Positions 3,346 through 38,801 of a DNA stretch of 64,000 nucleotides are shown in pieces. Position numbers and translations under genes: made by a program. Within the stretch, counting starts at the first letter, position 1; every line of letters starts with the position of its first letter. This DNA comes from Parabacteroides faecis (GTDB lineage Bacteria; Bacteroidota; Bacteroidia; Bacteroidales; Tannerellaceae): positions 62,001 to 126,000 of the forward strand of contig NZ_BMPB01000013.1 in the NCBI RefSeq assembly GCF_014647375.1. Direction: 5' to 3'. The notes beneath the pieces are model-generated. The model was given only the letters and a program-made list of their open reading frames with translations. It was not told the origin of the DNA and did not search any database.

Positions 3346-3374
3346 ACGAAATAGTAACTTTAATATTCACGAAC

Positions 3375-5186: not shown

Positions 5187-5229
5187 ATATTTAACCAGAA
5201 CAAGTAATATTTGTTTAGCAGATAGATTT

Positions 5230-5262
5230 TGTCCCTATGCCTCTTTTGCAGGTGTAGGGACA
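5230..5262 (+). terminator. Possible terminator hairpin after the GH2 gene
   Basis: An 8-bp inverted repeat, tgtcccta (5230-5237) and tagggaca (5255-5262), encloses a loop that can pair again (tgc/gca). Only a weak T-rich stretch follows, so termination strength is uncertain. Confidence 0.35.
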
Positions 5263-5287
5263 TCTTGTGTAAATCAATTAAAATAAG

Positions 5288-5295
5288 TACATTTG
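5288..5295 (+). promoter_or_regulatory. -7 element for the DUF4290-murA-rimM run
   Basis: TACATTTG matches TAnnTTTG and sits 14 bases before the ATG at 5310. A TTG in cttgtg about 20 bases upstream could serve as the -33 element. Confidence 0.5.
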
Positions 5296-5309
5296 CCGGA
5301 TAAACGAAT

Positions 5310-5915: not shown

Positions 5916-7216
5916 GTTCATTTGTTATAGAAGGTGGTTATAAGTTATCCGGCGAGATCACTCCGCAAGGTGCCAAGAACGAGGCATTGGAAGTGATTTG
6001 TGCTGTTTTGCTGACTCCGGAGAAAGTAACGATCCATAATGTACCCGATATCCTGGATGTGAACAACCTCATTCAGCTTTTGCGTGACATGCAGGTGAAA
6101 GTGGAACATCCGGCAGCCGATACCTATACGTTCCAGGCTGATAATATCGATCTGGATTATCTGAATACGGATGATTTCCTGCGTAAAAGCGGATCGTTAC
6201 GTGGTTCGGTCATGATCGTCGGACCGTTGGTTGCCCGCTTCGGCAAGGCATTGATCCCGAAACCGGGTGGCGACAAGATCGGACGCCGTCGTCTGGATAC
6301 CCACTTTGTCGGTATACAGAAGCTCGGTGCCTGCTTTAGCTATGATGCCGAACGTCAGTTATACGAGATCGAAGCGAAGCGTCTCAAAGGAGCCTATATG
6401 CTGCTGGACGAAGCTTCGGTAACCGGTACGGCCAATATCCTGATGGCTGCCGTGCTGGCAGAAGGTACTACCACCATTTATAACGCAGCCTGCGAACCCT
6501 ATTTGCAACAGCTGTCATCCATGCTCAACCGGATGGGGGCTAATATATCGGGAGTAGGCTCGAACCTGCTAACCATCGAAGGTGTCGACTCTCTAGGAGG
6601 AACTACCCATACTATTTTGCCGGATATGATCGAAGTCGGCAGTTTTATCGGTATGGCAGCCATGACCGCTTCCGACATCACCATAAAAAATACCGGATAT
6701 GAGATGTTGGGAATTATTCCCGAATCATTCCGCCGCCTGGGTATCACAGTCGAACAGATCGGCGACGATATCCATATCCCTACACACGATTCATACGAAA
6801 TAGATACCTTTATCGACGGTTCTATCATGACCATTGCCGATGCTCCCTGGCCGGGACTTACTCCCGACTTGCTGAGTGTTCTCCTGGTCGTAGCTACACA
6901 ATCCGTAGGCAGTGTGCTGATTCATCAGAAGATGTTTGAAAGCCGCCTGTTCTTTGTGGATAAGCTGATCGACATGGGAGCTCAGATCATTCTTTGTGAT
7001 CCGCACCGTGCTACGGTGATCGGTTTGGGCAACCGTTTCAAACTGCGTGGTTCCAATATGGTTTCTCCGGATATCCGTGCCGGCATAGCCTTGTTGATCG
7101 CTGCAATGAGTGCGGAAGGAACCAGCCATATCCATAATATCGATCAGATCGACCGCGGATATCAGAATATCGATAAACGTTTGAATAACATAGGAGCCCG
7201 TATTACCCGGCTCTGA
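5912..7216 (+). CDS. murA: UDP-N-acetylglucosamine 1-carboxyvinyltransferase MurA
   Basis: A 434-residue cytoplasmic enzyme that transfers enolpyruvate from PEP to UDP-GlcNAc, the first committed step of peptidoglycan synthesis. The start SFVIEGGYKLSGEI, the phosphate-binding region around GSLRGSVMIVGPL and the glycine-rich active loop PKPGGDKIGRRRLDTH are typical. In Escherichia coli MurA this loop carries Cys115, the residue alkylated by fosfomycin. Here the aligned residue is Asp121 (codon GAC at 6272-6274), a substitution known to keep activity but give fosfomycin insensitivity. Length is normal for the family. It is coupled to DUF4290 upstream and followed after 11 bases by rimM. Confidence 0.96.
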   Translation: MSSFVIEGGYKLSGEITPQGAKNEALEVICAVLLTPEKVTIHNVPDILDVNNLIQLLRDMQVKVEHPAADTYTFQADNIDLDYLNTDDFLRKSGSLRGSVMIVGPLVARFGKALIPKPGGDKIGRRRLDTHFVGIQKLGACFSYDAERQLYEIEAKRLKGAYMLLDEASVTGTANILMAAVLAEGTTTIYNAACEPYLQQLSSMLNRMGANISGVGSNLLTIEGVDSLGGTTHTILPDMIEVGSFIGMAAMTASDITIKNTGYEMLGIIPESFRRLGITVEQIGDDIHIPTHDSYEIDTFIDGSIMTIADAPWPGLTPDLLSVLLVVATQSVGSVLIHQKMFESRLFFVDKLIDMGAQIILCDPHRATVIGLGNRFKLRGSNMVSPDIRAGIALLIAAMSAEGTSHIHNIDQIDRGYQNIDKRLNNIGARITRL

Positions 7217-7227
7217 TATTTCCTGTT

Positions 7228-7749
7228 ATGATAAGAAAAGAAGAAGTTTTTAAGATCGGGCAGTTTGCCAAACCTCACGGGATAAAGGGAGAGATCTCGC
7301 TGGTGACGAACTGCGACTTGTTTGATGATGTAGAAGACCCTTGTATCGTTTGTGAGATGGATGGTATCCTGGTCCCTTTCTTTATCGAGGAGTACCGTTA
7401 TAAGACCGATACTGTCATGCTGGTAAAGCTTGAAAATATAAATGATGAGAAAGCTGCCCGTGAATTTACGAACCGTGAAGTCTTTTTCCCGTTGGAAGAT
7501 GTGGATGAAGACGACCTGGTAGGCGATATGTCGTGGGATAGTTTTATCGGATATACTGTCATCGACGAGCAACACGGGGAACTGGGTAAGATCACTGATG
7601 TGGATGAAACGACAATCAACGTTCTTTTGCAGATCGACCATAAAGGCAACGAAATACTCCTTCCGGCTGCCGAGGAGTTGATAACGGCTGCAGATCATGA
7701 AAATAAAACACTCCGGGTTTCCGTTCCCGAAGGTCTGCTTGATTTATAA
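7228..7749 (+). CDS. rimM: Ribosome maturation factor RimM
   Basis: A 173-residue protein that helps assemble the 30S subunit head, binding S19. The N-terminal RimM beta-barrel begins IGQFAKPHGIKGEIS, and the C-terminal PRC-barrel-like half contains GYTVIDEQHGELGKI and LLPAAEELI. Length is typical. It lies 11 bases after murA in the same direction and is probably in that transcript. In Bacteroidales rimM is placed here rather than in the rpsP-trmD-rplS operon of proteobacteria. Confidence 0.93.
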   Translation: MIRKEEVFKIGQFAKPHGIKGEISLVTNCDLFDDVEDPCIVCEMDGILVPFFIEEYRYKTDTVMLVKLENINDEKAAREFTNREVFFPLEDVDEDDLVGDMSWDSFIGYTVIDEQHGELGKITDVDETTINVLLQIDHKGNEILLPAAEELITAADHENKTLRVSVPEGLLDL

Positions 7750-7795
7750 TAACGTTAATTAGAGTAAACAATGCCCGTGTAGATACGGTTTTTGT

Positions 7796-7803
7796 TACTT
7801 TTG
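7796..7803 (+). promoter_or_regulatory. -7 element before the M23 peptidase gene
   Basis: TACTTTTG fits TAnnTTTG and lies 17 bases before the ATG at 7821. It could start a transcript for the M23 peptidase, dxr and rseP run. Confidence 0.45.
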
Positions 7804-7820
7804 CGTTTTAACATAAAAAC

Positions 7821-8693
7821 ATGGCACGAAAACAACGAAAGAACAATAAGAAATCATTCTGGCACCGGATCAGGTTCAAATACAAGCTGTCTTTTTTCAA
7901 TGAAACGACGCTGGAAGAAGTATGGTCTTTCCGTTTGTCACAGCTCTCGGCTTTTCTTACGCTTGCCTTGTTTGCTTTTATGTTGGTGGGGATAACTGCG
8001 TTGATTATTATTAAAACACCGATACGAAATTATTTACCGGGTTACCTGGATGTAGAAATACGTAAGGAGATCATGCAGAATGCACTGCGTGCCGATTCAC
8101 TGGAGCGGATGATGTCCATCCAGTCGCTTTATCTGGAAAATGTAGCCGGTATCCTGTCCGGTACGATCGAGCTGGATTCTATCCGTCAGATTGATTCCCT
8201 GGCCCATGTGGATGCAAACTACGAAATACCCCGCAGTAAGTCGGAAGAAAAGTTTGTCAAGAGTTTTGAGGAAGAAGAAAAATATAACCTGACGGTGCTG
8301 AATCCGAATCCGGTTCCTACAGACGGGATCTTTTTCTATAAACCTGTCAACGGCGTGGTATCTTCGCATTATGAAGCAGATGCCCGTCATTTCGGTGTAG
8401 ACCTCGTGGCGGCTCCGAAAGAAAGCGTACTGGCGACATTGGACGGTACGGTGGTATTTACCGGATTTGATCCTAATTTCGGGAATGTGATCCAGTTGCA
8501 ACACAAGAACGGATTCCTTTCCGTTTATAAACATAATGAATTATTGCTGAAAGAGATTGGCGACCACGTGGTAGCCGGCGAAGCGATTGCTTTGGTGGGA
8601 AACACGGGGAAACTGTCTACCGGCCCGCATCTCCATTTCGAGTTGTGGTATAAAGGTACTCCGGTCAATCCTGAAGAATATATAGCTTTTTAA
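7821..8693 (+). CDS. Membrane-anchored M23 family peptidase
   Basis: A 290-residue protein with a basic cytoplasmic tail, one membrane segment at about residues 47-69, a periplasmic linker with coiled-coil tendency, and a C-terminal LytM/M23 domain. The zinc ligands are intact: His190 and Asp194 in HFGVD, and His270/His272 in HLHFELW. It should therefore be an active peptidoglycan endopeptidase or a direct activator, unlike the degenerate EnvC/NlpD type. It is followed four bases later by dxr. The neighbourhood (murA, M23, rseP) is envelope-related. Confidence 0.9.
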   Translation: MARKQRKNNKKSFWHRIRFKYKLSFFNETTLEEVWSFRLSQLSAFLTLALFAFMLVGITALIIIKTPIRNYLPGYLDVEIRKEIMQNALRADSLERMMSIQSLYLENVAGILSGTIELDSIRQIDSLAHVDANYEIPRSKSEEKFVKSFEEEEKYNLTVLNPNPVPTDGIFFYKPVNGVVSSHYEADARHFGVDLVAAPKESVLATLDGTVVFTGFDPNFGNVIQLQHKNGFLSVYKHNELLLKEIGDHVVAGEAIALVGNTGKLSTGPHLHFELWYKGTPVNPEEYIAF

Positions 8694-8697
8694 ATCG

Positions 8698-9855
8698 ATG
8701 AAAAGAACTTTAGCCATATTAGGTTCTACCGGTTCGATCGGGACACAGGCCCTGGAAGTAGTCAGCGAACATGCCGACTTATTCGAAGTGTATGCCTTGA
8801 CCGCCAATAACCAGGTAGATTTACTGATTAATCAGGCACGTAAATATATGCCCGAAGTGGTCGTAATTGCCAACGAACAGAAATATCCCGAGTTGAAAGA
8901 GGCTTTGGAAGATCTGCCGATCAAGGTATGGGCGGGTTCGGATGCGATTGCACAGGTGGTACAGTCGGAGCCGATCGATATGGTGCTGACTGCCATGGTC
9001 GGATATTCCGGATTGAAACCGACGATTGCCGCTATCAAAGCAGGCAAGGCGATTGCGTTGGCCAATAAAGAAACGTTAGTGGTGGCGGGTGAATTGATCA
9101 CTTCGCTGGCTACAGAGCATAAAGTACCGGTCCTGCCGGTCGATTCTGAACATTCTGCCATTTTCCAGTGTTTAGCGGGAGAGTGGGAGAATCAGGTGGA
9201 GAAGATTCTGCTTACTGCTTCCGGCGGACCGTTCCGTACGAAAACGATGGAAGAACTGGCAGGGGTAACCAAAGCCCAGGCTTTGAAACATCCGAACTGG
9301 AGTATGGGGGCAAAGATCACGATCGATTCGGCTTCCATGATGAATAAAGGCTTTGAAATGATCGAAGCCAAATGGCTGTTTGGCGTAACACCAGAACAGA
9401 TACAGATCGTGGTGCATCCTCAATCGGTCATTCATTCGATGGTGCAGTTTGAAGACGGCGCTGTGATGGCCCAGTTGGGTATTCCGGATATGAAGTTACC
9501 TATCAGTTACGCATTCTCTTATCCGAAGCGTTTGAAGAGTAAAGCGCCCCGGTTGGATTTCAACCAGTATTCCACGTTGACATTCGAAGAACCCGATATG
9601 AAGCGTTTCCGCAACCTGGCATTTGCATTCGATGCGATCCGTACGGGAGGAAATATGCCGTGTATTTTGAATGCAGCCAACGAGATAGTGGTCGCAGCCT
9701 TTCTACGGGATGAGATCGGATTCCTGCAAATGAGCGATGTGATTGAAAAGACGATGGAGAAATCATCTTTCATAGCAACACCTACTTATGAGGATTATGT
9801 GGCAACAGATGCCGAAGCACGCCGGGTGGCGGCAGCGGTTATGAAAACAATATAA
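8698..9855 (+). CDS. dxr: 1-deoxy-D-xylulose 5-phosphate reductoisomerase
   Basis: A 385-residue enzyme that rearranges and reduces DXP to MEP with NADPH, the second step of the non-mevalonate isoprenoid pathway. The NADPH-binding motif GSTGSIG is at residues 8-14. The divalent-metal ligands Asp149 and Glu151 are in PVDSEHSAIF, with the third ligand in NKGFEMIEA. Length and motifs are standard. It lies between the M23 peptidase (4-base gap) and rseP (22-base gap). Confidence 0.96.
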   Translation: MKRTLAILGSTGSIGTQALEVVSEHADLFEVYALTANNQVDLLINQARKYMPEVVVIANEQKYPELKEALEDLPIKVWAGSDAIAQVVQSEPIDMVLTAMVGYSGLKPTIAAIKAGKAIALANKETLVVAGELITSLATEHKVPVLPVDSEHSAIFQCLAGEWENQVEKILLTASGGPFRTKTMEELAGVTKAQALKHPNWSMGAKITIDSASMMNKGFEMIEAKWLFGVTPEQIQIVVHPQSVIHSMVQFEDGAVMAQLGIPDMKLPISYAFSYPKRLKSKAPRLDFNQYSTLTFEEPDMKRFRNLAFAFDAIRTGGNMPCILNAANEIVVAAFLRDEIGFLQMSDVIEKTMEKSSFIATPTYEDYVATDAEARRVAAAVMKTI

Positions 9856-9877
9856 ATTAATACAGACAGACAAATAG

Positions 9878-11209
9878 ATGGAGACATTTTTAATTAGGGC
9901 GTTACAGCTCATCCTGAGCTTATCGATATTGGTCCTTGTGCATGAGTTCGGACATTTTATTTTTGCCCGTATTTTCAAGGTTCGGGTAGAGAAGTTTTAT
10001 CTTTTCTTTGATCCTTGGTTCTCATTGTTCAAGTTTAAGCCGAAGAACAGTGAGACAGAGTACGGTATCGGCTGGTTGCCTCTGGGCGGTTATTGCAAGA
10101 TATCGGGTATGATCGATGAAAGTATGGACAAGGAGGCGATGTCGCAACCTGCCAAACCGTATGAATTCCGTTCCAAACCTGCCGGTCAGCGTTTGATGAT
10201 CATGATTGCAGGTGTTTTGTTCAACTTCCTGTTGGCATTGTTTATCTATTCGATGGTGCTTTATACCTGGGGCGAAACCTATCTGCCTCTGAAGAATATG
10301 AAGCATGGTATGTACTACAGTGAAGCTTTCCATAACATCGGTTTTAAGGATGGCGATATTCTTTTGAAAGCGAATAATGAAGAGTTGGACCGTCTGGACC
10401 AGGCCAGTTTCCGCAAAGTCGTGGAAGCTAATAACGTTACGGTATTGCGTGACGGGGTAGAAACGATTATTCCTATACCGGAAGATATGATGCAGCGTTT
10501 TATGCGTGAAGGAAAAGGTTTTGCCAATCCGAACCGTATACCGATGGTTGTAAAGAGCTTGTTGTCCAAAGATTCACCGGCTGCGATTGCCGGTTTACAG
10601 GCTGGAGATAGTATTGTTGCGGTGAATGGACAGTCTACTCCTTTACTGGAGGAGGTCGCTGAATTATTCGATCAGAATAAAGGAAAGGATATAACTCTGA
10701 ACTTTTATCGTGATAATAAGGAACAGTCGGTTGTTCTCCAGTTGGATACAGCCGGAAAGATGGGAGCTTATCTGATGAGTTCGTCCGATATATATCCGAC
10801 AGTGACCCGTACATATGGTTTCTTCGAATCGTTCCCTGCCGGTGCTATGCTGGGGGTAAATACCTTAAAAGGGTATATCAATGATATGAAGTACGTCTTT
10901 ACGAAAGAAGGAGCGTCGAGCCTGGGCGGTTTCGGTACGATCGGAAGTATCTTCCCGACAGTCTGGAACTGGCAGGTATTCTGGATGCAGACGGCATTTT
11001 TGTCGATCATCCTGGCCTTTATGAATATATTGCCTATTCCGGCGTTGGATGGCGGACATGTGATGTTCCTGCTCTATGAAGTGGTTGCCCGTCGCAAGCC
11101 GAGCGATAAATTCCTGGAATATGCACAGATTACCGGTATGTTCCTGTTGTTCGCTTTGCTGATCTATGCAAATGGGAATGATATATTCCGCTTCTTTTTC
11201 AAGTCCTGA
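9878..11209 (+). CDS. rseP: Site-2 intramembrane metalloprotease RseP
   Basis: A 443-residue inner-membrane zinc protease. The catalytic motif HEFGH (residues 22-26) is in the first membrane segment and the second metal site LDGGH (Asp391) is near the C-terminus. One PDZ domain is evident at about 205-280 (PAAIAGLQAGDSIVAVNG), with a degenerate second PDZ region before it (GFKDGDILLKANNEEL). In other bacteria RseP cleaves anti-sigma factors and leftover signal peptides. Many Bacteroidales ECF sigma/anti-sigma pairs are plausible substrates, but none is encoded here. It is the last gene before the repeat-rich gap. Confidence 0.94.
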   Translation: METFLIRALQLILSLSILVLVHEFGHFIFARIFKVRVEKFYLFFDPWFSLFKFKPKNSETEYGIGWLPLGGYCKISGMIDESMDKEAMSQPAKPYEFRSKPAGQRLMIMIAGVLFNFLLALFIYSMVLYTWGETYLPLKNMKHGMYYSEAFHNIGFKDGDILLKANNEELDRLDQASFRKVVEANNVTVLRDGVETIIPIPEDMMQRFMREGKGFANPNRIPMVVKSLLSKDSPAAIAGLQAGDSIVAVNGQSTPLLEEVAELFDQNKGKDITLNFYRDNKEQSVVLQLDTAGKMGAYLMSSSDIYPTVTRTYGFFESFPAGAMLGVNTLKGYINDMKYVFTKEGASSLGGFGTIGSIFPTVWNWQVFWMQTAFLSIILAFMNILPIPALDGGHVMFLLYEVVARRKPSDKFLEYAQITGMFLLFALLIYANGNDIFRFFFKS

Positions 11210-11229
11210 CGTTTTTGTAAACTGATAAC

Positions 11230-11283
11230 ACTATAATGTCACTACCTTTAGCACTACTGTGCTGATAGTAGTGACATTATAGT
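11230..11283. repeat. Long inverted repeat with nested stem after rseP
   Basis: Perfect 16-bp arms, actataatgtcactac (11230-11245) and gtagtgacattatagt (11268-11283), enclose a second 5-bp stem, agcac/gtgct, at 11250-11263. The pairing continues imperfectly outward (ctgat/atcag). There is no T-run directly after it, so it is not a plain intrinsic terminator for rseP, although it lies only 20 bases past its stop. Confidence 0.75.
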
Positions 11284-11327
11284 ATCAGGATACCTGAGTC
11301 TATAGTGCGGGTATATCATTTCTATGT

Positions 11328-11393
11328 TATAGGGAAAAGTCTGTTATTCTATAGGGAGAGTTCCGGTAGGATATAGGGTAGAAGCTGCTACCT
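11328..11393. repeat. Three 22-bp imperfect tandem repeats starting TATAGGG
   Basis: TATAGGG occurs at 11328, 11350 and 11372, exactly 22 bases apart, and the rest of each unit is diverged but similar (n-A-G-A/G then C/G-rich). The last unit contains a short hairpin, ggtag/ctacc (11377-11392). The 22-bp period is two helical turns, so a protein could bind the repeats along one face of the DNA (inference). Confidence 0.65.
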
Positions 11394-11444
11394 TTTAAGG
11401 AAAAAAGTGTACGCTTTTCTTCTGAAATATGTAAGTCTTTTTTG

Positions 11445-11490
11445 AAACGGATAACTATCAGTCAGGAAATGGGTAGGCATCCGTTTTTTT
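11445..11490 (+). terminator. Intrinsic terminator-like hairpin
   Basis: Arms aaacggat (11445-11452) and atccgttt (11479-11486) are followed by a run of T to 11490. The loop is long (26 bases). It could end rseP transcription or an unannotated short RNA covering the 11230-11490 repeats. Confidence 0.45.
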
Positions 11491-11520
11491 GTTCTGTGCT
11501 ATGAAGTTCGCGAACTATAT

Positions 11521-11653
11521 GTTTCAGCCTTCAGTCTTTCCTACAGCTTGAATAATAAAAACTCCGGCTGAAAGGTGAACTTCTCTGTCGGAAAAGAACC
11601 TTTCAGCCGGAGCTATTGATTTTTACATTCTGAAACAGCCTGAAGGCTGAAAC
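11521..11653. repeat. Nested double inverted repeat
   Basis: Outer arms gtttcagccttcag (11521-11534) and ctgaaggctgaaac (11640-11653) are perfect 14-bp complements. Inside them, ctccggctgaaaggt (11562-11576) and acctttcagccggag (11598-11612) are perfect 15-bp complements. The words aataaaaactcc recur at the inner and outer borders. No ORF is present. This looks like a palindromic intergenic element (REP- or MITE-like) and lies 51 bases past the end of the convergent TPR gene. Confidence 0.7.
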
Positions 11654-11704
11654 GTGAAATAAAAACTCCCTTGAGGGATGGATATTTAAACGCTGATTAT
11701 ACGT

Positions 11705-12424
11705 TTATTTAGCCAACGTTTCGTTGATAGAATCCAGGATTTTCTTGGAGTTAGCATCTGCAGCATTGATTGCCAAAGCTTGTTCCAGATATTCTTTTGC
11801 TTTCTTCATCTGAACGTCTGCTTTATCCTTTTCTGCATCATATTTTGCAGGATCGGTAGCGGCTGCCAGAATCTTGGCACCTTCATTGTAATACATAGCT
11901 CCTAAGCTATAAAGCGCATTACCTTTATATTTAGGATTACTTACGATCAGGACATCTTTATATAATTCTTCAGCATCGGCTACTTTGCCACCTTTCTGGG
12001 CTGCCTGTCCTTGCTTCATACAATATACATAAAGCAGTTTTTCCAGATCGGCATCACCTGGCTTTGCTTTCAAACCTGCCTCTACAGTTGCTGTAAATTC
12101 GGCAGCTTTATTCAGGTTACGCAATGACATTGCTTTTCCTGTATAGGCATCGTCGATGTTTTTGTTCTTTTGAATTGCTAAATCATAATATTTTACTGCA
12201 TCTTCATATTTCTTAGCTTGAAAAGCAGCGAATGCACAATTAAAAACACGGTCGGCATCTTCATTGTTAGTTTGCTTCAGGAACCCGTCATACTTTGTAA
12301 ATGCTTCCGCATAGTTTTTAGCTTTTAAGGCTGCATCACCTTCATCACGCAGTTTATCAGCGTCTTGTGCAAATACATTTCCAATACTTAGGCAGAAAGC
12401 CAATAACAAAACAATTTTCTTCAT
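11705..12424 (-). CDS. Exported tetratricopeptide-repeat protein
   Basis: A 239-residue protein with a signal peptide (residues 1-19, cut near VFA-QD) followed by about four TPR-like helical hairpins, for example GDAALKAKNYAEAFTKYDGFL and AFQAKKYEDAVKYYDLAIQ. No catalytic motif is present. TPR proteins of this kind are common periplasmic scaffolds in Bacteroidales, and the partner cannot be named. It is monocistronic, facing the repeat-rich gap downstream, with its own -7-like element TACCTTAG at 12461-12468 on the minus strand. Confidence 0.85.
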   Translation of the reverse strand: MKKIVLLLAFCLSIGNVFAQDADKLRDEGDAALKAKNYAEAFTKYDGFLKQTNNEDADRVFNCAFAAFQAKKYEDAVKYYDLAIQKNKNIDDAYTGKAMSLRNLNKAAEFTATVEAGLKAKPGDADLEKLLYVYCMKQGQAAQKGGKVADAEELYKDVLIVSNPKYKGNALYSLGAMYYNEGAKILAAATDPAKYDAEKDKADVQMKKAKEYLEQALAINAADANSKKILDSINETLAK

Positions 12425-12460
12425 GGTTGTTAAACGATTTAATTTTTATTATTAGATGCG

Positions 12461-12468
12461 CTAAGGTA
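12461..12468 (-). promoter_or_regulatory. -7-like element for the TPR gene
   Basis: On the minus strand this reads TACCTTAG, a near match to TAnnTTTG, 36 bases upstream of the ATG at 12424. Confidence 0.35.
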
Positions 12469-12655
12469 GTAAGCTCTGTAAAAGTATCAAAACGATTTTA
12501 CATTTTTTTTGATATTATAAAGGAATGAGACCTTAATTTAGAAACGAAGGCAAGCAGACAGATTACAGATAAAAGAAGGCATGAATATAAAGGATTGTAA
12601 ATGTCGGTTATGTTCCGGACAAAGATCAGGAGCATAACCGACATTTGTTTTGGGG

Positions 12656-13762
12656 TTATAATACGGCAGGATAGCAGGGGAGTCCGAAGGCTTCGGCTAC
12701 TGCCGGATAGACGATTTTCCCTTCTATGATATTCAGTCCGGGATAAAGGCTTTTGTCTTCTTTGCATGCCTCTTTCCATCCTTTATCCGCCAGTTCCAGT
12801 ATATAAGGCAATGTCGCATTCGTCAATGCCAGTGTAGAGGTCTGGGGGACGGCACCCGGGATATTGGCTACGCAATAGTGGACGATCGTATCGACCGTAT
12901 AGACCGGATCGGCATGTGTTGTGGGATGTGAAGTCTCGAAACAACCTCCCTGGTCGATGGCGACATCTACCAGGACGCTTCCCGGCTTCATTAATTGCAG
13001 CATCTCTTTTGTTATCAGGTGGGGAGCTTTGGCTCCGGGGATCAGAACGGCACCGATCACCAGGTCCGTGTATGGAAGCTCTGTCTCGATATTGTGGGTG
13101 GAGGAATAAAGTGTTTTTACATTAGCGGGCATGATTTGCTCGAGGTAACGTAAGCGGGGTAGTGAAATGTCGGCTATTGTCACGTCGGCACCGAGTCCGG
13201 CGGCCATCAATGCGGCGCTATGTCCGACTATACCACCTCCTAGCACCAATACGCGAGCTGGTTTTACTCCCGGTACGCCTCCTAAAAGGATGCCTTTTCC
13301 ACCCTGCGGTTTTTCCAGGAAGCGGGCACCTTCCTGTATCGACATACGTCCGGCAACTTCACTCATAGGGATCAGAAGAGGCAGTGTACCGTCCGGATTT
13401 TCAACGGTCTCATACGCCAGGCAGATGGAACCGCTGTCCATCATGGCAAGTGTCAGTTTTTCGTCTGAAGCAAAATGGAAATAAGTAAAGACGAGTTGTC
13501 CTTTGCGTACCAATGAGTATTCGGAGGCAATCGGCTCTTTTACTTTAACGATCATTTCAGCAGTCTGGTAAACGTCGCTTATCGACGGGAGAATCTGTGC
13601 TCCGGCTTCTACATAGGCTGAATCAGGAAAACCGCTGTTTTCACCGGCTGTATGTTGTATATAGACGGTGTGTCCTCTCTTCACCAATTCTTTAGCTCCG
13701 GCAGGCGTAAGCGCTACACGGTTCTCATTGTTTTTGATTTCTTTGGGAATTCCGATGATCAT
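12656..13762 (-). CDS. ald: Alanine dehydrogenase
   Basis: A 368-residue cytoplasmic enzyme that interconverts L-alanine with pyruvate and ammonia using NAD. The start MIIGIPKEIKNNENRVALTP, the substrate region around KVKEP and the nucleotide-binding GGGIVGHSAALMAAGLGADV (about residues 173-192) are characteristic of the AlaDH/PNT family. The short length and single NAD-binding domain favour alanine dehydrogenase over transhydrogenase alpha subunit, and no pntB is nearby. It stands alone between spacers, with a -7-like TATCTTTA at 13801-13808. Confidence 0.93.
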   Translation of the reverse strand: MIIGIPKEIKNNENRVALTPAGAKELVKRGHTVYIQHTAGENSGFPDSAYVEAGAQILPSISDVYQTAEMIVKVKEPIASEYSLVRKGQLVFTYFHFASDEKLTLAMMDSGSICLAYETVENPDGTLPLLIPMSEVAGRMSIQEGARFLEKPQGGKGILLGGVPGVKPARVLVLGGGIVGHSAALMAAGLGADVTIADISLPRLRYLEQIMPANVKTLYSSTHNIETELPYTDLVIGAVLIPGAKAPHLITKEMLQLMKPGSVLVDVAIDQGGCFETSHPTTHADPVYTVDTIVHYCVANIPGAVPQTSTLALTNATLPYILELADKGWKEACKEDKSLYPGLNIIEGKIVYPAVAEAFGLPCYPAVL

Positions 13763-13800
13763 AATGTTAATGTTTAAATGTTGTTATGCTGCAATATACA

Positions 13801-13808
13801 TAAAGATA
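13801..13808 (-). promoter_or_regulatory. -7-like element for ald
   Basis: TATCTTTA on the minus strand, one base off TAnnTTTG, 38 bases upstream of the ald ATG at 13762. Confidence 0.4.
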
Positions 13809-13915
13809 TGACATTATGCTGTAAAAGAATGATTTTTATTTCTTTTTGACAAGTGATGGTTGATGGCTGGACTTCGCGATTGAATATAGAAAGAAATGAA
13901 ACAGTAATGGCAAAG

Positions 13916-14482
13916 TCACTTTGGCTTCACAAATCCTACCGGGTTGCGCGGCTTATCAGACTGTTTCTTTTGGACTTGCAATTCTGCCAGAGTTTTATTG
14001 ATTAATTCCAGTTGTATCCGGGTATCTTCGTTTATGTCGTTGTAGTCAGTAAAAACTTCCTCAATGTATTCTTTGAGTTCTTTTACTTCTTGCTGAAGTT
14101 CTGCGGTTTTATCAACAGGAGGGTTAGTGATCATTTGCCGCACAGCAACAAAGGCACGCATTATGTTGATATTCACCTGTATTGCTGTATTTGAACGGAG
14201 TACACTGCTAAGCATAGCCACTCCCATTTCTGTAAAAACAAAAGGCATGTATTTAAGGTGCTTTCCTTGTTCCATTTTTAAGGTCACAATTTGTGATCTT
14301 AAAGATTCCTCTTTTGTTAACTGAAACATGAAGTCTTCCGGGAAACGGTCAATATTACGTTTTACTGCCTGATTTAAGGTTCTTGTTTCTACTCCGTACA
14401 TTTCTGCCAAATCACGATCCAGCATAACTTTATGCCCTCGTATCTCATAGATCTTACTTTGAATTATTCGTATTTCATTCAT
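13916..14482 (-). CDS. ORF6N domain protein
   Basis: A 188-residue protein whose first about 90 residues match the ORF6N (KilA-N related) DNA-binding domain: [34 protein letters not shown], here recognised by RGxxVMLDxDLAxxYGVxT. The C-terminal part is a charged coiled-coil-like tail ([19 protein letters not shown]). Such proteins are spread by phages and mobile elements but are common as single chromosomal genes in Bacteroidales; the function is unknown. No phage or integrase gene lies nearby. A good -7 element, TACATTTG, lies at 14521-14528 on the minus strand. Confidence 0.88.
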
Positions 14483-14520
14483 AGTTGGTTTTTTAAGATA
14501 ATTATTAATATCATTGGTCG

Positions 14521-14528
14521 CAAATGTA
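14521..14528 (-). promoter_or_regulatory. -7 element for the ORF6N gene
   Basis: TACATTTG on the minus strand, 38 bases upstream of the ATG at 14482, matches TAnnTTTG exactly. Confidence 0.5.
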
Positions 14529-14663
14529 ATGAATTAATTGAAATTATCCCACTCTTCCAAACATGCTTTTCGTAAAAACTCAAATCTGATAAATATTGAA
14601 CCTTTTGCTATCTCCATTATCAGGACATATTGACTCGTTATTGATAAACACTAATGTTCCTCT

Positions 14664-15806
14664 TTAAAATAATAAGTTAAGAATATAGCAAATCTGTTCT
14701 ATGGTCCGTCGGATATTACGATAGGCATAGTCTGGTTGCATCGCTTTTTCCAGGGAGATGGGGGCAGGGTGTATAGGGAATATAGCGGACAGACCTGCTT
14801 CCCGTAATTCTTTGTCTGCTGTAATATCTAGTTGTCCGGTGATGGCAATGACAGGAATCTGCTGTGAGGCTGCTGCACGGGCAATGCCGACAGGTACTTT
14901 GCCGAACAATGTTTGCCGGTCCATCTTTCCTTCTCCGGTGATCACCAGACCGGCCCCGCGAATGATCTCGTCAAAATGCAGATAATCCATAATCAGTTCG
15001 ATACCCGGAGATATATTAGCTTGCAGAAAAGCGACACAACCTCCTCCCATACCGCCGCCGGCTCCTGCTCCGGGCAGATGACCGATCTCTTTTCCGGTCG
15101 TTTCAAAAATAAGTTCAGCCAGGTGTTCCATCCCTTTGTCGAGTGCTTTGATTTGTTCTTCATTCCCTCCTTTTTGCGGACCGAATATACAGGCTGCTCC
15201 CTGCGGACCATAAAAGGGATTGGTAACATCGGTTGCTATATGAAAAGTGCAATCCTGTAATTCTGGTAATTGGTTTTGTGTGTCGATATGCCGGATGGAG
15301 GAAAGACTTTTCCCTCCTTTTTCCACCTCATTACCCTTTTCATCAGTGAAGCGGATACCCAAAGCCTGCATCATCCCTGTTCCGGCATCGTTCGTCGCAC
15401 TCCCGCCCACACCGATAATAAAATTGCGGCAGCCGCGTTCGATGGCGTCGGCTATCATTTCACCCGTGCCGTAGGTGGTCGTATCCATAACATTCCCCGG
15501 TTTCAAAGGAATCAGATCCAGACCGCTGGCAGCCGACATTTCGATGATTGCCGTCTGTCCGTCTCCCGTCATACCGTAGCTGGCCTGAATCGGTTGCATC
15601 AAGGGGTTATGCACCGGTATAGTTATGATTTTCCCTAGGGTTGCATCTACCAGCGCATCGACAGTCCCTTCGCCACCGTCGGCTATAGGTACTTTGATCA
15701 CTTCACATCCGGGCAAAGTATTCTGTATCCCTTCTTCTACGGCGTTGGCGATGGAGGAGGAGGAAAGGCATCCTTTAAAAGAATCGACAGCGATAACTAT
15801 TTTCAT
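14664..15806 (-). CDS. Glycerate kinase (GarK/GlxK family)
   Basis: A 380-residue cytoplasmic kinase that phosphorylates D-glycerate with ATP, feeding it into glycolysis. The start KIVIAVDSFKGCLSS, the block ADGGEGTVDALV, the glycine-rich GVGGSATNDAGTGM and the C-terminal VITGEGKMDRQTLFGK are all family signatures. Whether the product is 2- or 3-phosphoglycerate cannot be read from the sequence. It has its own promoter overlapping the secA terminator and no partner gene for glycerate catabolism in the window. Confidence 0.93.
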   Translation of the reverse strand: MKIVIAVDSFKGCLSSSSIANAVEEGIQNTLPGCEVIKVPIADGGEGTVDALVDATLGKIITIPVHNPLMQPIQASYGMTGDGQTAIIEMSAASGLDLIPLKPGNVMDTTTYGTGEMIADAIERGCRNFIIGVGGSATNDAGTGMMQALGIRFTDEKGNEVEKGGKSLSSIRHIDTQNQLPELQDCTFHIATDVTNPFYGPQGAACIFGPQKGGNEEQIKALDKGMEHLAELIFETTGKEIGHLPGAGAGGGMGGGCVAFLQANISPGIELIMDYLHFDEIIRGAGLVITGEGKMDRQTLFGKVPVGIARAAASQQIPVIAITGQLDITADKELREAGLSAIFPIHPAPISLEKAMQPDYAYRNIRRTIEQICYILNLLF

Positions 15807-33287: not shown

Positions 33288-34403
33288 ATGGAAGAACGAT
33301 TGATTAAGGTGGGCATTACCCACGGAGATATAAATGGCATCGGATATGAGGTGATCTTGAAAACATTCTCAGATGCCAGGGTTGCAGAACTTTGTACTCC
33401 GATCATATACGGATCATCGAAGATCGCAGCTTATCACCGGAAAGCGTTGGAGTTGCCTCCTGTGAATATGAATATCATCTCTCAGGCCGAAGATGCCGGT
33501 ATTAACCGGGTGAATATCATTAACTGTGTGGATGATGAAACAAAAGTGGAATTATCGCAATCGACATCGATCGCCGGAGAAGCTGCATTCCTGGCTTTAG
33601 AGGCTGCCGTTACTGATCTGAAAAGAGGGGCGGTGGATGTATTGCTGACGGCTCCGATCAATAAACATAATATCCAGAACGAACAGTTCCATTTTCCGGG
33701 ACATACCGAATATCTGGAAGAACGTTTCGGAGGAGTAGGGCGGAAAGCTTTGATGATCCTGATGAAGGACGGTCTGCGTGTCGCTTTGGTAACTGGGCAT
33801 ATACCTCTTTCCGAGGTTCCTTCCAAAATAACTGTGGAGGATATTGTGTCGAAGTTACGTATATTCAATCAATCGCTCAAACAGGATTTCGGTATCGTGA
33901 AGCCTCGTATTGCCGTACTTTCTTTGAATCCGCATGCCGGGGATGACGGCTTGTTGGGTAAAGAAGAAGAAACGATCATCATACCCGCTATGGAAGAAGC
34001 AGAAAAAAGAGGTGTGATGTCTTTTGGACCGTATGCGGCAGACGGATTTTTCGGTTCCCAGATGTATGATAAATTTGATGGTGTACTGGCAATGTACCAT
34101 GATCAGGGACTGGCGCCGTTCAAAACGCTGGCGATGGATGACGGTGTTAATTATACGGCAGGTTTGTCGATCGTGCGGACTTCTCCGGCACATGGTACCG
34201 CCTATGATATTGCCGGACAGAATCTCGCTTCCGAAGAATCGTTCCGTCAGGCTTTATATACAGCTCTGGATATTTACCGCAACCGGTCTATCTATCGTGA
34301 AGCGACGGCTAATCCACTCCGTAAACAGTATTTTGATAAGGGCGGCGATAATGAAAAGCTGGATCTTACCAAAGATGACGATACAGAGGTTTCTCCTCAA
34401 TAA
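33288..34403 (+). CDS. pdxA: 4-hydroxythreonine-4-phosphate dehydrogenase PdxA
   Basis: A 371-residue NAD-dependent enzyme of the DXP-dependent pyridoxal phosphate pathway. Recognisable blocks are the start KVGITHGDINGIGYEV, the metal-binding FPGHTEYLEERFG and VTGHIPLSEV, and the C-terminal TSPAHGTAYDIAGQ. The C-terminus has a short acidic extension (DLTKDDDTEVSPQ). The transcript ends at the perfect palindrome at 34413-34449. Confidence 0.94.
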   Translation: MEERLIKVGITHGDINGIGYEVILKTFSDARVAELCTPIIYGSSKIAAYHRKALELPPVNMNIISQAEDAGINRVNIINCVDDETKVELSQSTSIAGEAAFLALEAAVTDLKRGAVDVLLTAPINKHNIQNEQFHFPGHTEYLEERFGGVGRKALMILMKDGLRVALVTGHIPLSEVPSKITVEDIVSKLRIFNQSLKQDFGIVKPRIAVLSLNPHAGDDGLLGKEEETIIIPAMEEAEKRGVMSFGPYAADGFFGSQMYDKFDGVLAMYHDQGLAPFKTLAMDDGVNYTAGLSIVRTSPAHGTAYDIAGQNLASEESFRQALYTALDIYRNRSIYREATANPLRKQYFDKGGDNEKLDLTKDDDTEVSPQ

Positions 34404-34412
34404 GTAATGAAT

Positions 34413-34449
34413 AAATATCCCCCGGAAAACTGTTTTCCGGGGGATATTT
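34413..34449. terminator. Terminator after pdxA
   Basis: Perfect 18-bp arms aaatatcccccggaaaac (34413-34430) and gttttccgggggatattt (34432-34449). The T-rich end on both sides lets it work in either direction. Confidence 0.8.
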
Positions 34450-34548
34450 GTTATAAAAGCTGGCTCTTTATACCTGTTGTATTTTATAATAATCTGGTCT
34501 ATATTGCGCTTTTTGACTTCAATCTTTTTTTGATAGGAAAAGTTTGCG

Positions 34549-34556
34549 TAAGTTTG
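34549..34556 (+). promoter_or_regulatory. Promoter of the lipid operon
   Basis: TAAGTTTG matches TAnnTTTG, 24 bases before the ATG at 34581. TTTG at 34529-34532 fits a -33 element. Confidence 0.6.
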
Positions 34557-34580: not shown

Positions 34581-35048
34581 ATGTTTAAAGATAAAACGAT
34601 CGTATATACTTCCGGAACATTCGATATGTTTCATTATAATCATCTCCGGATGATCAATTATGCTCGTAGTCTGGCTGATATCCTTATCGTAGGAGTAAGC
34701 ACGGACGAACTGGTTTCTTCCTATAAAGCGAATCCCATTATCCCGTTCAATGAACGTCTTCAAATCATTGAAGCGTTGAAAACTCCGGATATTGTCATAC
34801 CGCAGCATACGTTGGATCATACAGAAATTGTAAAGAAGTTGAATATCGATGCTTTCGTGGTTGGTGACGACTGGTTCGGCAAATACGATTATCTGAAAGA
34901 TTTAGGTGTACAGGTTTTCTATTTCCCATATGGAACCGGCGTATCTTCATCTAATTTGAAGAAAACGATTCATGATTCCTACGAAGAGAACCTGAAATAT
35001 CAACGACATGCTAAACCTGCTACTGTAAAGGGAAAAGGGGAAGAATAA
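34581..35048 (+). CDS. TagD-like cytidylyltransferase/adenylyltransferase
   Basis: A 155-residue nucleotidyltransferase of the cytidylyltransferase-like family. The start YTSGTFDMFHYNHLRMINYA carries the nucleotide-binding HxGH box as His18-Tyr-Asn-His21, with Asn in place of the usual Gly. The C-terminal YGTGVSSSNLKKTI matches the RTxGISTS-type motif. By family it would activate a phospho-alcohol with CTP, for example glycerol-3-phosphate to CDP-glycerol or phosphoethanolamine to CDP-ethanolamine; the substrate cannot be fixed. It is the first gene of a four-gene run with a CDP-alcohol phosphotransferase, the natural user of its product. Confidence 0.85.
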   Translation: MFKDKTIVYTSGTFDMFHYNHLRMINYARSLADILIVGVSTDELVSSYKANPIIPFNERLQIIEALKTPDIVIPQHTLDHTEIVKKLNIDAFVVGDDWFGKYDYLKDLGVQVFYFPYGTGVSSSNLKKTIHDSYEENLKYQRHAKPATVKGKGEE

Positions 35049-35057
35049 AAAGAACTC

Positions 35058-35786
35058 ATGGAAAAGTGTGCTTTAATTACCGGTGGTACGAAGGGTATAG
35101 GTAAAGCGGTGGCTTTCTGTCTGGGAAAAGCCGGGTATGACCTTGTGCTTACTTATGCCTCTGATCCGGAAAAAGCCGAACAAACACAAGACTGTTTGCG
35201 GCAGCAATTCGGGATCAACGTGTCTGTACTACAGGCTGATATAACAAAGAAAGAATCCATTGATAAAATAGATGCTTATTTGCGGGAGAATAATTTGCTG
35301 TTGGATGCTGTTGTCTTTAATGCAGGACTGACTTGTCGCGATTCATTTGAAGACTTGTCGCTTGCAGATTGGGAACGGGTCTTTTTTGCGAATGTACATT
35401 TCCCTGTATTCTTATTACAACGTATTGTTCAATTGATCAATAAAGGGGGCAGTGTGGTCTTTACCGGTTCTTTGATGGGTATTCAGCCGCATTCGGTTTC
35501 TCTGGCTTACGGGGTAACCAAAAGTGCTGTGCATGCTTTGGTAAAGAATATGGTCAAATTCCTGACACCTTATGAGTTGCGTGTGAACGCAGTTGCTCCC
35601 GGGTTTGTCGATACCGAATGGCAGAAGACTAAACCGGCCGAGATACGGAGGAATATAGAGAACAAGGTTGCTTTAGGACGTTTTTGTGATCCGGAAGAGT
35701 TGGCCGAAGTGTATAAGATGTTAATAGAAAATAGTTATTTTAATGGCGAAGTGGTCGTTGTAGACGGCGGATATTCGTATAAATAA
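35058..35786 (+). CDS. Short-chain dehydrogenase/reductase (FabG- or 3-ketosphinganine-reductase-like)
   Basis: A 242-residue Rossmann-fold reductase. The cofactor motif TGGTKGIG is at residues 8-15, and the catalytic Ser138, Tyr151 and Lys155 (YGVTK) are intact. General automatic naming would be 3-oxoacyl-ACP reductase. Its position inside a lipid headgroup and acyl-transfer operon, away from other fatty acid synthesis genes, suggests another keto-lipid substrate. From memory, a Bacteroides SDR with 3-ketosphinganine reductase activity (BT_0972 locus) is described, and this may be its counterpart; that is an inference. It is 9 bases after the previous gene. Confidence 0.85.
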   Translation: MEKCALITGGTKGIGKAVAFCLGKAGYDLVLTYASDPEKAEQTQDCLRQQFGINVSVLQADITKKESIDKIDAYLRENNLLLDAVVFNAGLTCRDSFEDLSLADWERVFFANVHFPVFLLQRIVQLINKGGSVVFTGSLMGIQPHSVSLAYGVTKSAVHALVKNMVKFLTPYELRVNAVAPGFVDTEWQKTKPAEIRRNIENKVALGRFCDPEELAEVYKMLIENSYFNGEVVVVDGGYSYK

Positions 35787-35793
35787 TAGATCG

Positions 35794-36681
35794 ATGAGTA
35801 ATTTGGATAAAGAATACGAAGCATCACTGAAATCGATAGAAACAGAAAATGTGGTTGACCGGGCGTTTTATCGTCCGATCGGTTTCCGTATCGCTCGTAT
35901 GTTGCGTGGCACGGGTATTACCCCGAATATGGTGACGGTCATTTCCATATTTGTAGGAGCGGCCGTCGGTTTCATGTTTTATCATGATAATCTGGTTTAT
36001 AATATCTGTGGTATTTTATTATTGATTTTTGCTAATATACTCGACTGCGTAGACGGTCAACTGGCACGTCTGACCGGCATTAAGTCTGCTATCGGGCGAA
36101 TACTTGACGGATTTGCCGGTGATATCTGGTTTGCTTCTATCTATGTCGGTTTTGCTCTCCGTTTATCTCACGAATATGGTACTTACTGGTTTTTCGCTTT
36201 AGCCGTTATTTCCGGCTTATCCCATCTGGTACAGGCGAATATAACCGATTATTATAAAACATTACACCTTTATTTCATCAGTAAGGATAAGGGGGCAGAA
36301 TTCCAGTCTCTGGAGCAGGTGATAGCCCGTCATAAAGAGATGAAACTGGGTATCAATAAAACATTTTATTTTCTTTACAGGGGATATACTTTACTTCAGG
36401 TGAAAGCCACTCCTTCTTTGCAGCGTATGTTACAGAGTCTTCATGCCAAATACGGGGATGATATTCCGGAAAATGTACGGGTTGCTTTTCGTAAACAAAG
36501 TCGTGACTTAATGCGTTATATAGATTTGCTGACATTTAACGGACGTACGATCGTTATGTTTATCGTTGTGTTGGTAGGTGAGGTCTGGGTTTATTTCCTG
36601 TATGAAATAATCGTATTGAATTTTGTATTGCTCATGTCGATGCGCAAACACGAAAAAATGTGCGCATCGTTTATTGAATAA
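35794..36681 (+). CDS. CDP-alcohol phosphatidyltransferase family membrane enzyme
   Basis: A 295-residue integral membrane protein with about six membrane segments. The catalytic signature reads DCVDGQLAR (Asp84, Asp87, Arg92), Gly101 and RILDGFAGD with Asp105 and Asp110. The last two Asp are separated by four residues, where the canonical motif has three. It should move a phospho-alcohol from a CDP carrier to a lipid alcohol, or the reverse arrangement. A soluble, charged insert of about 60 residues (about 165-245) is longer than in PgsA or PssA. It lies 7 bases after the SDR gene and 7 bases before the acyltransferase gene. Confidence 0.87.
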   Translation: MSNLDKEYEASLKSIETENVVDRAFYRPIGFRIARMLRGTGITPNMVTVISIFVGAAVGFMFYHDNLVYNICGILLLIFANILDCVDGQLARLTGIKSAIGRILDGFAGDIWFASIYVGFALRLSHEYGTYWFFALAVISGLSHLVQANITDYYKTLHLYFISKDKGAEFQSLEQVIARHKEMKLGINKTFYFLYRGYTLLQVKATPSLQRMLQSLHAKYGDDIPENVRVAFRKQSRDLMRYIDLLTFNGRTIVMFIVVLVGEVWVYFLYEIIVLNFVLLMSMRKHEKMCASFIE

Positions 36682-36688
36682 ATAGAAT

Positions 36689-37516
36689 ATGAAAAAGAGC
36701 GTAGTAGACATTAATGATTTGCAGGAAGCTGCCCCGTTCTTCAGAAGCCGTATAGGCACCTTCCTTGGCAAATTACTGATTAAATGGTTAAGTGTTGACA
36801 AGGTAAATAAGGTACATGCCAATAACTGCCATTTGCGTGGATCAGCGTTTACTACTGCATTACTGAATGACCCCCTGATCGATATCAAGTATAAATTGCA
36901 TAATGCGGAAATATTGGATCATTTGCCAGAAGGGGCATTTATAACAATATCGAATCATCCGATAGGTTCGGTCGATGGTATTATACTGATCGATATCATG
37001 GCAGCCCGTCGTCCGGACTTTAAAGTTATGGTGAACGAGATCCTGGTAAAGATCGGTGCCATGAAGGATAATTTTGTTTCAGTCCTACCCGATTCTACCG
37101 GCAATGGTCCGAACCCGGCTAATATAAATGGCGTACGCTATTCTTTACAACGCCTGAAAGAAGGGCATCCGATGGGGTTCTTTCCGGCTGGGGCGATTTC
37201 TTTTTATAATAAGGAAGACAAGGGAATCCATGATCTTCCCTGGACACACAGCGTGATCCGTCTGATCCGCAAAGCTAATGTTCCGATATATCCCGTTTAT
37301 TTTGATTTTTTAAATTCCCGCTTCTTTTACTGGCTGGGTAGTATCAGTTGGAAGATACGTACTTTGCGTATTCCTGCCGAGGCTTTTAACAAACGGGGGA
37401 AAACAGTTGATGTGTATGTTGGTGAACCTATTTCGCCTGACGAAATAAAGAATTTTACGGATGATACGGCACTGGCTGAATTTCTATTCAACCGTACTTA
37501 TGGTGCTAAAAAATAA
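36689..37516 (+). CDS. PlsC-like lysophospholipid acyltransferase family protein
   Basis: A 275-residue glycerolipid-type acyltransferase. The catalytic box reads SNHPIGSVDGI with His90 and Asp96, that is H-x5-D where most PlsC enzymes have H-x4-D; similar NHPxGGxDG boxes occur in Bacteroidetes and hemolysin-like acyltransferases. FFPAGAIS corresponds to the FPEGTRS substrate motif. No clear transmembrane helix is present. It could O-acylate a glycerolipid or N-acylate an amino lipid. It is the last gene of the lipid operon. Confidence 0.85.
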   Translation: MKKSVVDINDLQEAAPFFRSRIGTFLGKLLIKWLSVDKVNKVHANNCHLRGSAFTTALLNDPLIDIKYKLHNAEILDHLPEGAFITISNHPIGSVDGIILIDIMAARRPDFKVMVNEILVKIGAMKDNFVSVLPDSTGNGPNPANINGVRYSLQRLKEGHPMGFFPAGAISFYNKEDKGIHDLPWTHSVIRLIRKANVPIYPVYFDFLNSRFFYWLGSISWKIRTLRIPAEAFNKRGKTVDVYVGEPISPDEIKNFTDDTALAEFLFNRTYGAKK

Positions 37517-37613: not shown

Positions 37614-38801
37614 ATGATGATTAAGGTTGACGTCCAGCAAATAAAACAGCGTTTTGGAATTATAGGAAATAGCCCTGGCCTGAATAGGGCAATCGATGTC
37701 GCTCTCCAGGTGGCTCCGACTGATTTGTCTGTGCTTATTACGGGAGAAAGTGGTGTCGGTAAAGAAACTTTTCCTCAGATCATACATCAGAATAGTCCGC
37801 GTAAACATGGTCAGTATATAGCCGTGAACTGTGGGGCTATTCCGGAAGGTACCATAGACTCCGAATTGTTCGGACATGAAAAAGGATCTTTTACCGGAGC
37901 GTTGGCAGACCGGAAGGGGTATTTTGAAGTAGCCGACGGAGGAACTATTTTTCTGGATGAAGTAGGGGAGTTGCCCACTCCGACGCAAGCCCGTTTGTTG
38001 CGTGTTCTCGAGACCGGCGAATTTATTAAGGTCGGTTCTTCGAAAGTGCTGAAAACCAATGTGAGGATTGTCGCTGCAACTAATGTGAACCTGGTGCAGG
38101 CTGTGGCAGACGGGAAATTCCGTGAAGATCTGTATTATCGTTTGAATACGGTACCTATCCAGATACCGCCGCTGCGCGAACGTCCGGAGGATATCATCCT
38201 GCTGTTCCGTAAATTCGCAGGAGACTGTGCCGAGAAATATCGAATGCCGCCGATCCGGTTGGATGAAGAGGCACGCCAGTTGCTGACCTCTTACCGCTGG
38301 CCGGGAAACGTTCGCGAGTTGAAGAATATAACGGAACGTATTTCTGTGATCGAGGAAAACCGTGATATTACAGCCAGCGTGCTGCGTTTGTATCTTCCGG
38401 ATCTGAATGTGGAAAAATATCCGGTGCTGGTTAAGAAACAGGAGAGCGACCAGAAGTTTTTCAACAGTGAACGCGAGATACTTTACCAGGTACTTTTCGA
38501 TATGAAGAACGATGTCAATGAACTGAAAAAGCTGGTTCACGATATCATGGGAGGAAAAATGCCTATGCCGGTAGCCGACGAGACTACTTATGCACATCCG
38601 ATCCATCCGGTACATTCGGCACCGATCCAGGAAGCGGAAGCGGTAGAGGAAGAAGAGACACTTTCGTTGGAAGATGTTGAGAAAGATATGATCCGTAAGG
38701 CGTTGGAAAAACATAACGGACGCCGGAAGAATGCGGCGGCCGACCTGAAAATATCAGAACGTACTCTTTACAGAAAGATTAAAGAATATAATTTGGAATA
38801 A
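37614..38801 (+). CDS. Sigma-54-dependent activator without a sensor domain
   Basis: A 395-residue bacterial enhancer-binding protein. The AAA+ domain begins almost at the N-terminus: Walker A GESGVGKE at about residues 45-52, the sigma-54 contact loop GSFTGA at 91-96 (GAFTGA in most family members), and Walker B GGTIFLDEV near 115. A linker of about 75 residues (280-355, acidic and His/Pro-rich) leads to the C-terminal Fis-type helix-turn-helix (NAAADLKISERTLYRKIKEY). No receiver, GAF or PAS domain is present, so control must come from a partner or from expression level, as with PspF. lptE begins 1 base after its stop. Confidence 0.92.
   Translation: MMIKVDVQQIKQRFGIIGNSPGLNRAIDVALQVAPTDLSVLITGESGVGKETFPQIIHQNSPRKHGQYIAVNCGAIPEGTIDSELFGHEKGSFTGALADRKGYFEVADGGTIFLDEVGELPTPTQARLLRVLETGEFIKVGSSKVLKTNVRIVAATNVNLVQAVADGKFREDLYYRLNTVPIQIPPLRERPEDIILLFRKFAGDCAEKYRMPPIRLDEEARQLLTSYRWPGNVRELKNITERISVIEENRDITASVLRLYLPDLNVEKYPVLVKKQESDQKFFNSEREILYQVLFDMKNDVNELKKLVHDIMGGKMPMPVADETTYAHPIHPVHSAPIQEAEAVEEEETLSLEDVEKDMIRKALEKHNGRRKNAAADLKISERTLYRKIKEYNLE

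Follow-up and report, generated by a model that had tools for sequence, protein, structure and literature searches.

A four-gene operon of Parabacteroides faecis that may make phosphoglycerol dihydroceramide

Four lipid-type genes behind pdxA

The stretch of Parabacteroides faecis DNA analysed here (the window; 64,000 nucleotides of contig NZ_BMPB01000013.1) contains at 34581..37516 an operon of four genes, all on the + strand and separated by gaps of 9, 7 and 7 bases according to open reading frame (ORF) calls. They encode a divergent TagD-like cytidylyltransferase (34581..35048, 155 aa; PF01467), a FabG-like short-chain dehydrogenase/reductase (SDR; 35058..35786, 242 aa; PF00106 and PF13561), a CDP-alcohol phosphotransferase (35794..36681, 295 aa; PF01066) and a PlsC-type acyltransferase (36689..37516, 275 aa; PF19576 and PF01553), each scoring above the gathering score of the families given. 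We lean towards the view that this operon makes phosphoglycerol dihydroceramide (PG-DHC), with substrates that we infer.

Of 35 named loci, 34 contain the four genes in this same order, and the remaining one (L039) begins within the transferase at a contig end; 34 of these loci are titled Parabacteroides or Tannerellaceae and one 'Bacteroidales bacterium Barb4'. With starts set by alignment, the first and second gaps each measure 1-15 bases in 31 of 34 cases, and the third does so in 32 of 35. Transferase identity is 96% to both P. gordonii and P. goldsteinii, the nearest named records, and cytidylyltransferase identity is 88-100% over the named loci compared.

Upstream lies pdxA (33288..34403, + strand, assigned by sequence similarity), followed on its 3' side by a 20-bp hairpin at 34410..34452 (+ strand; fold -29.7 kcal/mol, z -7.6), which is likely to be a terminator marking the operon boundary and separating the operon from pdxA; its T-run is weak and it was missed by a consensus terminator scan. 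The first ATG is preceded by a weak Bacteroides-type promoter-like match with one mismatch (34526..34556, + strand; TAAGTTTG at 34549-34556). Such matches number 12 in the window against 8.9 expected, no clear enrichment, and neither the terminator consensus scan nor the promoter scan of the window beat chance. A sigma-54-type regulator (37614..38801, + strand) follows the operon after a gap of 97 bases and is probably not part of it. An earlier, sequence-only reading of this DNA had described the same ORFs with the same order, gaps and coordinates, and had placed a terminator and a promoter before them; there is a strong upstream hairpin where the terminator was proposed, whereas the promoter match is no clearer than chance.

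Families of the four enzymes

Both its PF01066 score and the fold of its predicted model (predicted local distance difference test score 80.7; VIA-align comparison) place the transferase among the CDP-alcohol phosphotransferases. The last Asp of the motif of this family, DxxDGxxAR...GxxxDxxxD, is the catalytic base. In the operon enzyme the first part of the motif is kept, and Gly stands at +4 after the third Asp, with Asp at +5, where the usual motif ends GX3DX3D (PMC9246714; this and the other published sources are cited from excerpts). Among the 48 rows of a transferase tree, drawn only from ORFs of 200-400 aa with DxxDGxxAR, position +4 holds Gly in 37 (with Asp or Asn at +5), Ser in one (with Glu at +5) and the usual Asp in 10, which include two PssA-like rows and the transferases adjoining serine palmitoyltransferase (SPT) at loci L130 and L133. 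Tannerellaceae are represented in the tree by the window, L119 and seven named loci, and transferase loci L134, L136, L137 and L149-L151 have no row; the row set A1 contains 17 of the 35 named loci together with the window. With bootstrap values that have not settled, the transferases encoded beside a TagD-like gene fall into a single clade (11 rows; 98/100), which lies among the transferases of inositol-lipid cassettes.

PF01066 matches four proteins in the P. faecis genome (G000): the operon transferase, two paralogues and a PssA-like protein encoded beside a Psd-like gene (by eye). The second paralogue, with Ser then Glu at the place of the usual Asp, ends a lipid-type cluster (L041, G000:C21, 3349-10563) in which a ketosynthase, a carrier protein, two dehydratase-like genes, a flavin adenine dinucleotide enzyme, FabG and a thioesterase were recognised by eye.

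The best solved relatives of the cytidylyltransferase are TagD (1coz, 85.8 bits) and TarD (2b7l, 83.0 bits). The acyltransferase is related to GlsA and to the acyltransferase part of OlsF, scoring 123.5 bits with NF053697 and 129.3 bits with NF052615, each under the cut-off, and had no match up to E 0.1 among solved structures. GlsA forms an ester on a 3-hydroxy acyl chain, a chemistry that matches the acylated form of PG-DHC.

The SDR is FabG-like, with intact GxxxGxG cofactor and YxxxK catalytic motifs, and its top NCBIfam score (150 bits) is to a family other than KdsR, under that family's cut-off. NF049977, the family of the 3-ketosphinganine reductase KdsR (BT_0972; cut-off 400), does not appear among its 25 top-ranking NCBIfam matches, which go down to 108 bits, and another SDR of this genome (G000:C3:363328-364155) passes the KdsR cut-off with 438 bits. 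At 30.4 kDa this second protein is also nearer than the operon SDR (26.8 kDa) to the published mass of BT_0972, 30.99 kDa (PMC9278070). Orthologues of the operon SDR (E up to 1e-38) are, moreover, missing from 47 of the 51 SPT-bearing genomes in an order sample of 159 evenly drawn Bacteroidales genomes. The identification of the operon SDR as KdsR, made in the sequence-only reading, is not supported by these comparisons, and we reject it. Because KdsR, and also a FabG-like gene adjoining a FabH-like gene (L164; both by eye), are encoded elsewhere in the genome, the operon SDR does not seem to be required for ketosphinganine reduction or for general fatty acid synthesis. No paper was found for the locus tags BT_0969-0971, 0973 and 0974.

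Co-occurrence with SPT and the pdxA slot

Orthologues of the operon SDR, at the same threshold, occur in four genomes of the order sample (G000, G302, G199 and G318), where by coordinates a close cytidylyltransferase and transferase adjoin them. SPT (its query scored 509 bits with the Sphingobacterium SPT and 303 with the next entry) is present in 51 of the 159 genomes, including all four that bear the operon; in P. faecis its gene shares a contig with the operon and lies about 63 kb upstream. The proposal of a CDP-alcohol headgroup operon in sphingolipid makers, with SPT outside the window, is in this respect borne out. Among 69 Tannerellaceae genomes, surveyed with the cytidylyltransferase alone and not the whole operon as query, this enzyme was found in 67, including all 47 of good quality, and SPT in 64, including 45 of those 47; 62 genomes have both and two have SPT alone.

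Neighbourhoods were taken for all 22 genomes with a transferase match, except for a second piece in G208, and, beyond the genomes thus covered, in part for six of the 11 found in the cytidylyltransferase search, from which G317 and G252 were left out. Two further genomes carry a related cytidylyltransferase and gave no transferase match: that of G293 adjoins LicD, IspD-type and CDP-glycerol polymerase-type genes, and that of G231, a truncated frame, has a LicD-looking neighbour (by eye). Another search gave some match, mostly weak, in 111 of 198 genomes, and none of the 16 places chosen from it (L139-L154) showed a TagD-like neighbour; a search in the family of G341, meant to reach Bacteroidaceae, was empty, which is uninformative for a family with only three genomes.

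The position behind pdxA is shared, in several other families, with inositol-lipid genes. Of 16 order-level loci in which an inositol-type transferase was called, eight (L120, L121, L123, L124, L128, L131, L135 and L136) have pdxA immediately before the cassette, and some of the remaining eight end at contig breaks. The order at L123 is rlmN, DUF4837, pdxA, nucleotidyltransferase, ATP-grasp-like gene, transferase, a 342-aa ORF, HAD, MIPS, acyltransferase (45% to that of the operon, and the only one seen in an inositol locus), sigma-54 regulator and lptE, the names being given by similarity to the window and to the inositol locus L040, and for rlmN, MIPS and ATP-grasp by eye. Judged by its gene order, L123 is the operon locus with inositol genes apparently swapped in. 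With a kin transferase and the inositol cluster in the same pdxA slot, the operon in turn looks like a headgroup-swapped version of the inositol cassette, equipped with a TagD-like enzyme. G318 and G199 have the operon at a place other than the pdxA slot, behind an ORF of 363-364 aa, and an extra gene, in G318 a PF03706 flippase-like one, separates transferase and acyltransferase.

Several of the related loci have features of their own. At L135 (G339; 5256-8052), pdxA is followed by a transferase of the same family and then by a ribitol-5-phosphate/IspD-type cytidylyltransferase, without inositol genes, possibly a third headgroup in the pdxA slot; an aminotransferase of G339, compared for a possible link to Porphyromonas, had no very close solved relative. 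The inositol locus of P. faecis (L040, G000:C3) encodes at 7394-8251 an ATP-grasp-looking protein without a Pfam match, and in 12 of the 16 inositol-type loci a homologue of it precedes the transferase. The inositol cassette of L127 (G319) adjoins a distant SPT-like enzyme (39%) that is accompanied by an SDR and a further gene shared with the L041 cluster. L130 (G217; 1787-15141), and similarly L133 (G331), carry in one row SPT, two long Pfam-less genes (GNAT-looking by eye), a HisC/CobD-like pyridoxal phosphate enzyme (under the cut-offs of both families), a CDP-alcohol transferase that has the usual Asp, a nucleotidyltransferase and an exporter of the LysE type. The inositol cassette comes next; this row could be a phosphoethanolamine-ceramide route.

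The putative product and its relation to known systems

In a survey of more than 240 isolates from more than 90 intestinal species, PG-DHC came only from P. distasonis and P. merdae; T. forsythia is reported there to contain primarily PG-DHC, and P. gingivalis, in which this lipid was described, predominantly phosphoethanolamine dihydroceramide (PE-DHC) (PMC3037954). According to another source, PG-DHC and acylated PG-DHC are the most prominent in P. gingivalis, without phosphoinositol lipids, and B. fragilis is the reverse; in the acylated form, the N-acyl chain bears a further acyl chain at its 3-OH (PMC10757044). The published range of PG-DHC and the existence of this form agree with the range of the operon and with its acyltransferase. 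We found no report in the open-licence literature of PubMed Central, as far as its texts were accessible, that assigns genes to PG-DHC headgroup synthesis: phosphoglycerol headgroups are mentioned without a gene in the excerpts of PMC12275187, the word 'gene' is absent from those of PMC10757044, and the enzyme under study in PMC5126122 is, by its excerpts, SPT.

For PG-DHC, the TagD-like enzyme would convert CTP and glycerol 3-phosphate to CDP-glycerol, and the membrane CDP-alcohol phosphotransferase would transfer phosphoglycerol to the 1-OH of dihydroceramide, SPT and KdsR being encoded elsewhere. Acylated PG-DHC would arise when the GlsA-like acyltransferase forms an ester at the 3-OH of the N-linked 3-hydroxy fatty acid. 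The SDR may either supply a polyol phosphate to the cytidylyltransferase, the part taken by MIPS in the inositol cassette, or set a lipid hydroxyl.

A number of observations weigh against this assignment. The main loose end is that P. gingivalis makes PG-DHC, by the published excerpts, and is outside the Tannerellaceae; in the order sample the operon is found beyond that family in one other only (f42), and the PG-DHC makers T. forsythia and P. merdae are not among the genomes seen by name. The cytidylyltransferase is present without an SPT match in five of the 69 Tannerellaceae genomes, two of which (G399 and G408) are about 90% complete, and glycerol-type and inositol-type loci coexist in G199 (f42) and in the P. 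faecis genome, which keeps an inositol cassette at G000:C3. There is no obvious need for an extra SDR in PG-DHC synthesis. The cytidylyltransferase itself scores 103.1 bits with TIGR01518 (TagD/GCT), below the cut-off of 165.4, and the lead of TagD (85.8 bits) over an ethanolamine-phosphate enzyme (80.5 bits) among its solved relatives is narrow. In what we take to be the TagD signatures, HxGH and RTEGISTT, the 35 copies (34 named loci and the window) depart from TagD: HYNH replaces HxGH, as GTFDMFHYNH in 34 copies with no match in one, and the second position, FPYGTG[VI]SS in all 35, lacks the Arg.

These changed residues are compatible with another CDP-polyol, made by the SDR and cytidylyltransferase together from a precursor such as a ketose phosphate, in which case the headgroup would not be plain glycerol. 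The cytidylyltransferase accompanies the SDR in four of four order-sample genomes, MIPS holds an analogous place in the inositol cassette and the ribitol-type cytidylyltransferase of G339 adjoins a transferase of the operon's family. We nevertheless consider this unlikely, as PG-DHC is a published lipid with a fitting range (PMC3037954) and no other polyol ceramide of Parabacteroides was found in the literature excerpts available. Slightly less likely still is that the operon makes phosphatidylglycerol from CDP-glycerol and diacylglycerol, replacing a missing PgsA. TIGR00560 (PgsA) is above cut-off in none of the 159 Bacteroidales genomes, P. faecis included, with one weaker match (G347), while six of 14 control genomes exceed it, and the P. 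faecis genome has the four PF01066 proteins named above. However, PgsA is equally missing from order-sample genomes in which the operon was not found, and phosphatidylglycerol is listed among B. fragilis lipids (PMC12132519) and is reported at low level from every species in an oral set (PMC11052126), so that this lipid need not depend on the operon; a role as order-wide PgsA substitute is weakened accordingly. That the SDR is KdsR and the operon makes ceramide phosphoethanolamine is very improbable despite the intact catalytic residues of the SDR, the SPT of the genome and the closeness of the ethanolamine-phosphate enzyme, given that KdsR proper is encoded elsewhere, that the SDR is missing from most SPT-bearing genomes and that PE-DHC is reported also from Bacteroides and Prevotella (PMC3037954), while the operon is rare in the order sample. 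Of the two headgroups put forward in the sequence-only reading, phosphoglycerol ceramide thus fits best.

The effects of PG-DHC, a bacterial sphingolipid, on host cells have been a subject of study. Were the assignment correct, deletion of the four genes would make its headgroup step testable in a gut commensal, there would be a reason why Parabacteroides has PG-DHC and B. fragilis inositol ceramides, and sphingolipid headgroups would be exchanged by cassette. A wider proposal, which we put forward tentatively and hold to be possible rather than probable, is that the pdxA locus of Bacteroidales is a headgroup-exchange slot in which a single family of ceramide transferases lacking the fourth Asp is paired with interchangeable makers of CDP-alcohols (inositol, glycerol, perhaps ribitol), a cassette swap switching the acidic sphingolipid of a lineage, and that the operon would be its PG-DHC version, the headgroup precursor coming from the operon's reductase.

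TagD and TarD are the nearest solved relatives of the cytidylyltransferase, which keeps their GDDWxGKxD; it differs from them in its TIGR01518 score, in HYNH, in the missing RTEGISTT Arg and in having lipid genes as neighbours. Compared with AF2299 and IPCT-DIPPS, the transferase has Gly at the fourth Asp position, and the AF2299 alignment offers no counterpart for about 80 residues of the model range 16-291. The acyltransferase shares a family with GlsA, the lyso-glycine-lipid O-acyltransferase, but its score of 123.5 bits is below the cut-off of 260. The ceramide phosphoglycerate (Cpg) pathway of Caulobacter likewise uses a CDP-activated three-carbon headgroup for ceramide, but it starts with a ceramide kinase, and its CpgD is said to have no homology to TagD (excerpts of PMC12275187). 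Closest is the alternative, B. vulgatus-like inositol-lipid cluster, for which the authors propose, as yet unconfirmed, a soluble CDP-alcohol from the cluster's own cytidylyltransferase (PMC9246714): it has a homologous transferase (43% to the P. faecis inositol copy) and shares the pdxA slot through the eight loci above, whereas the operon has a TagD-like enzyme and an SDR where that cluster has a nucleotidyltransferase, an ATP-grasp-like protein, HAD and MIPS (ATP-grasp and MIPS by eye).

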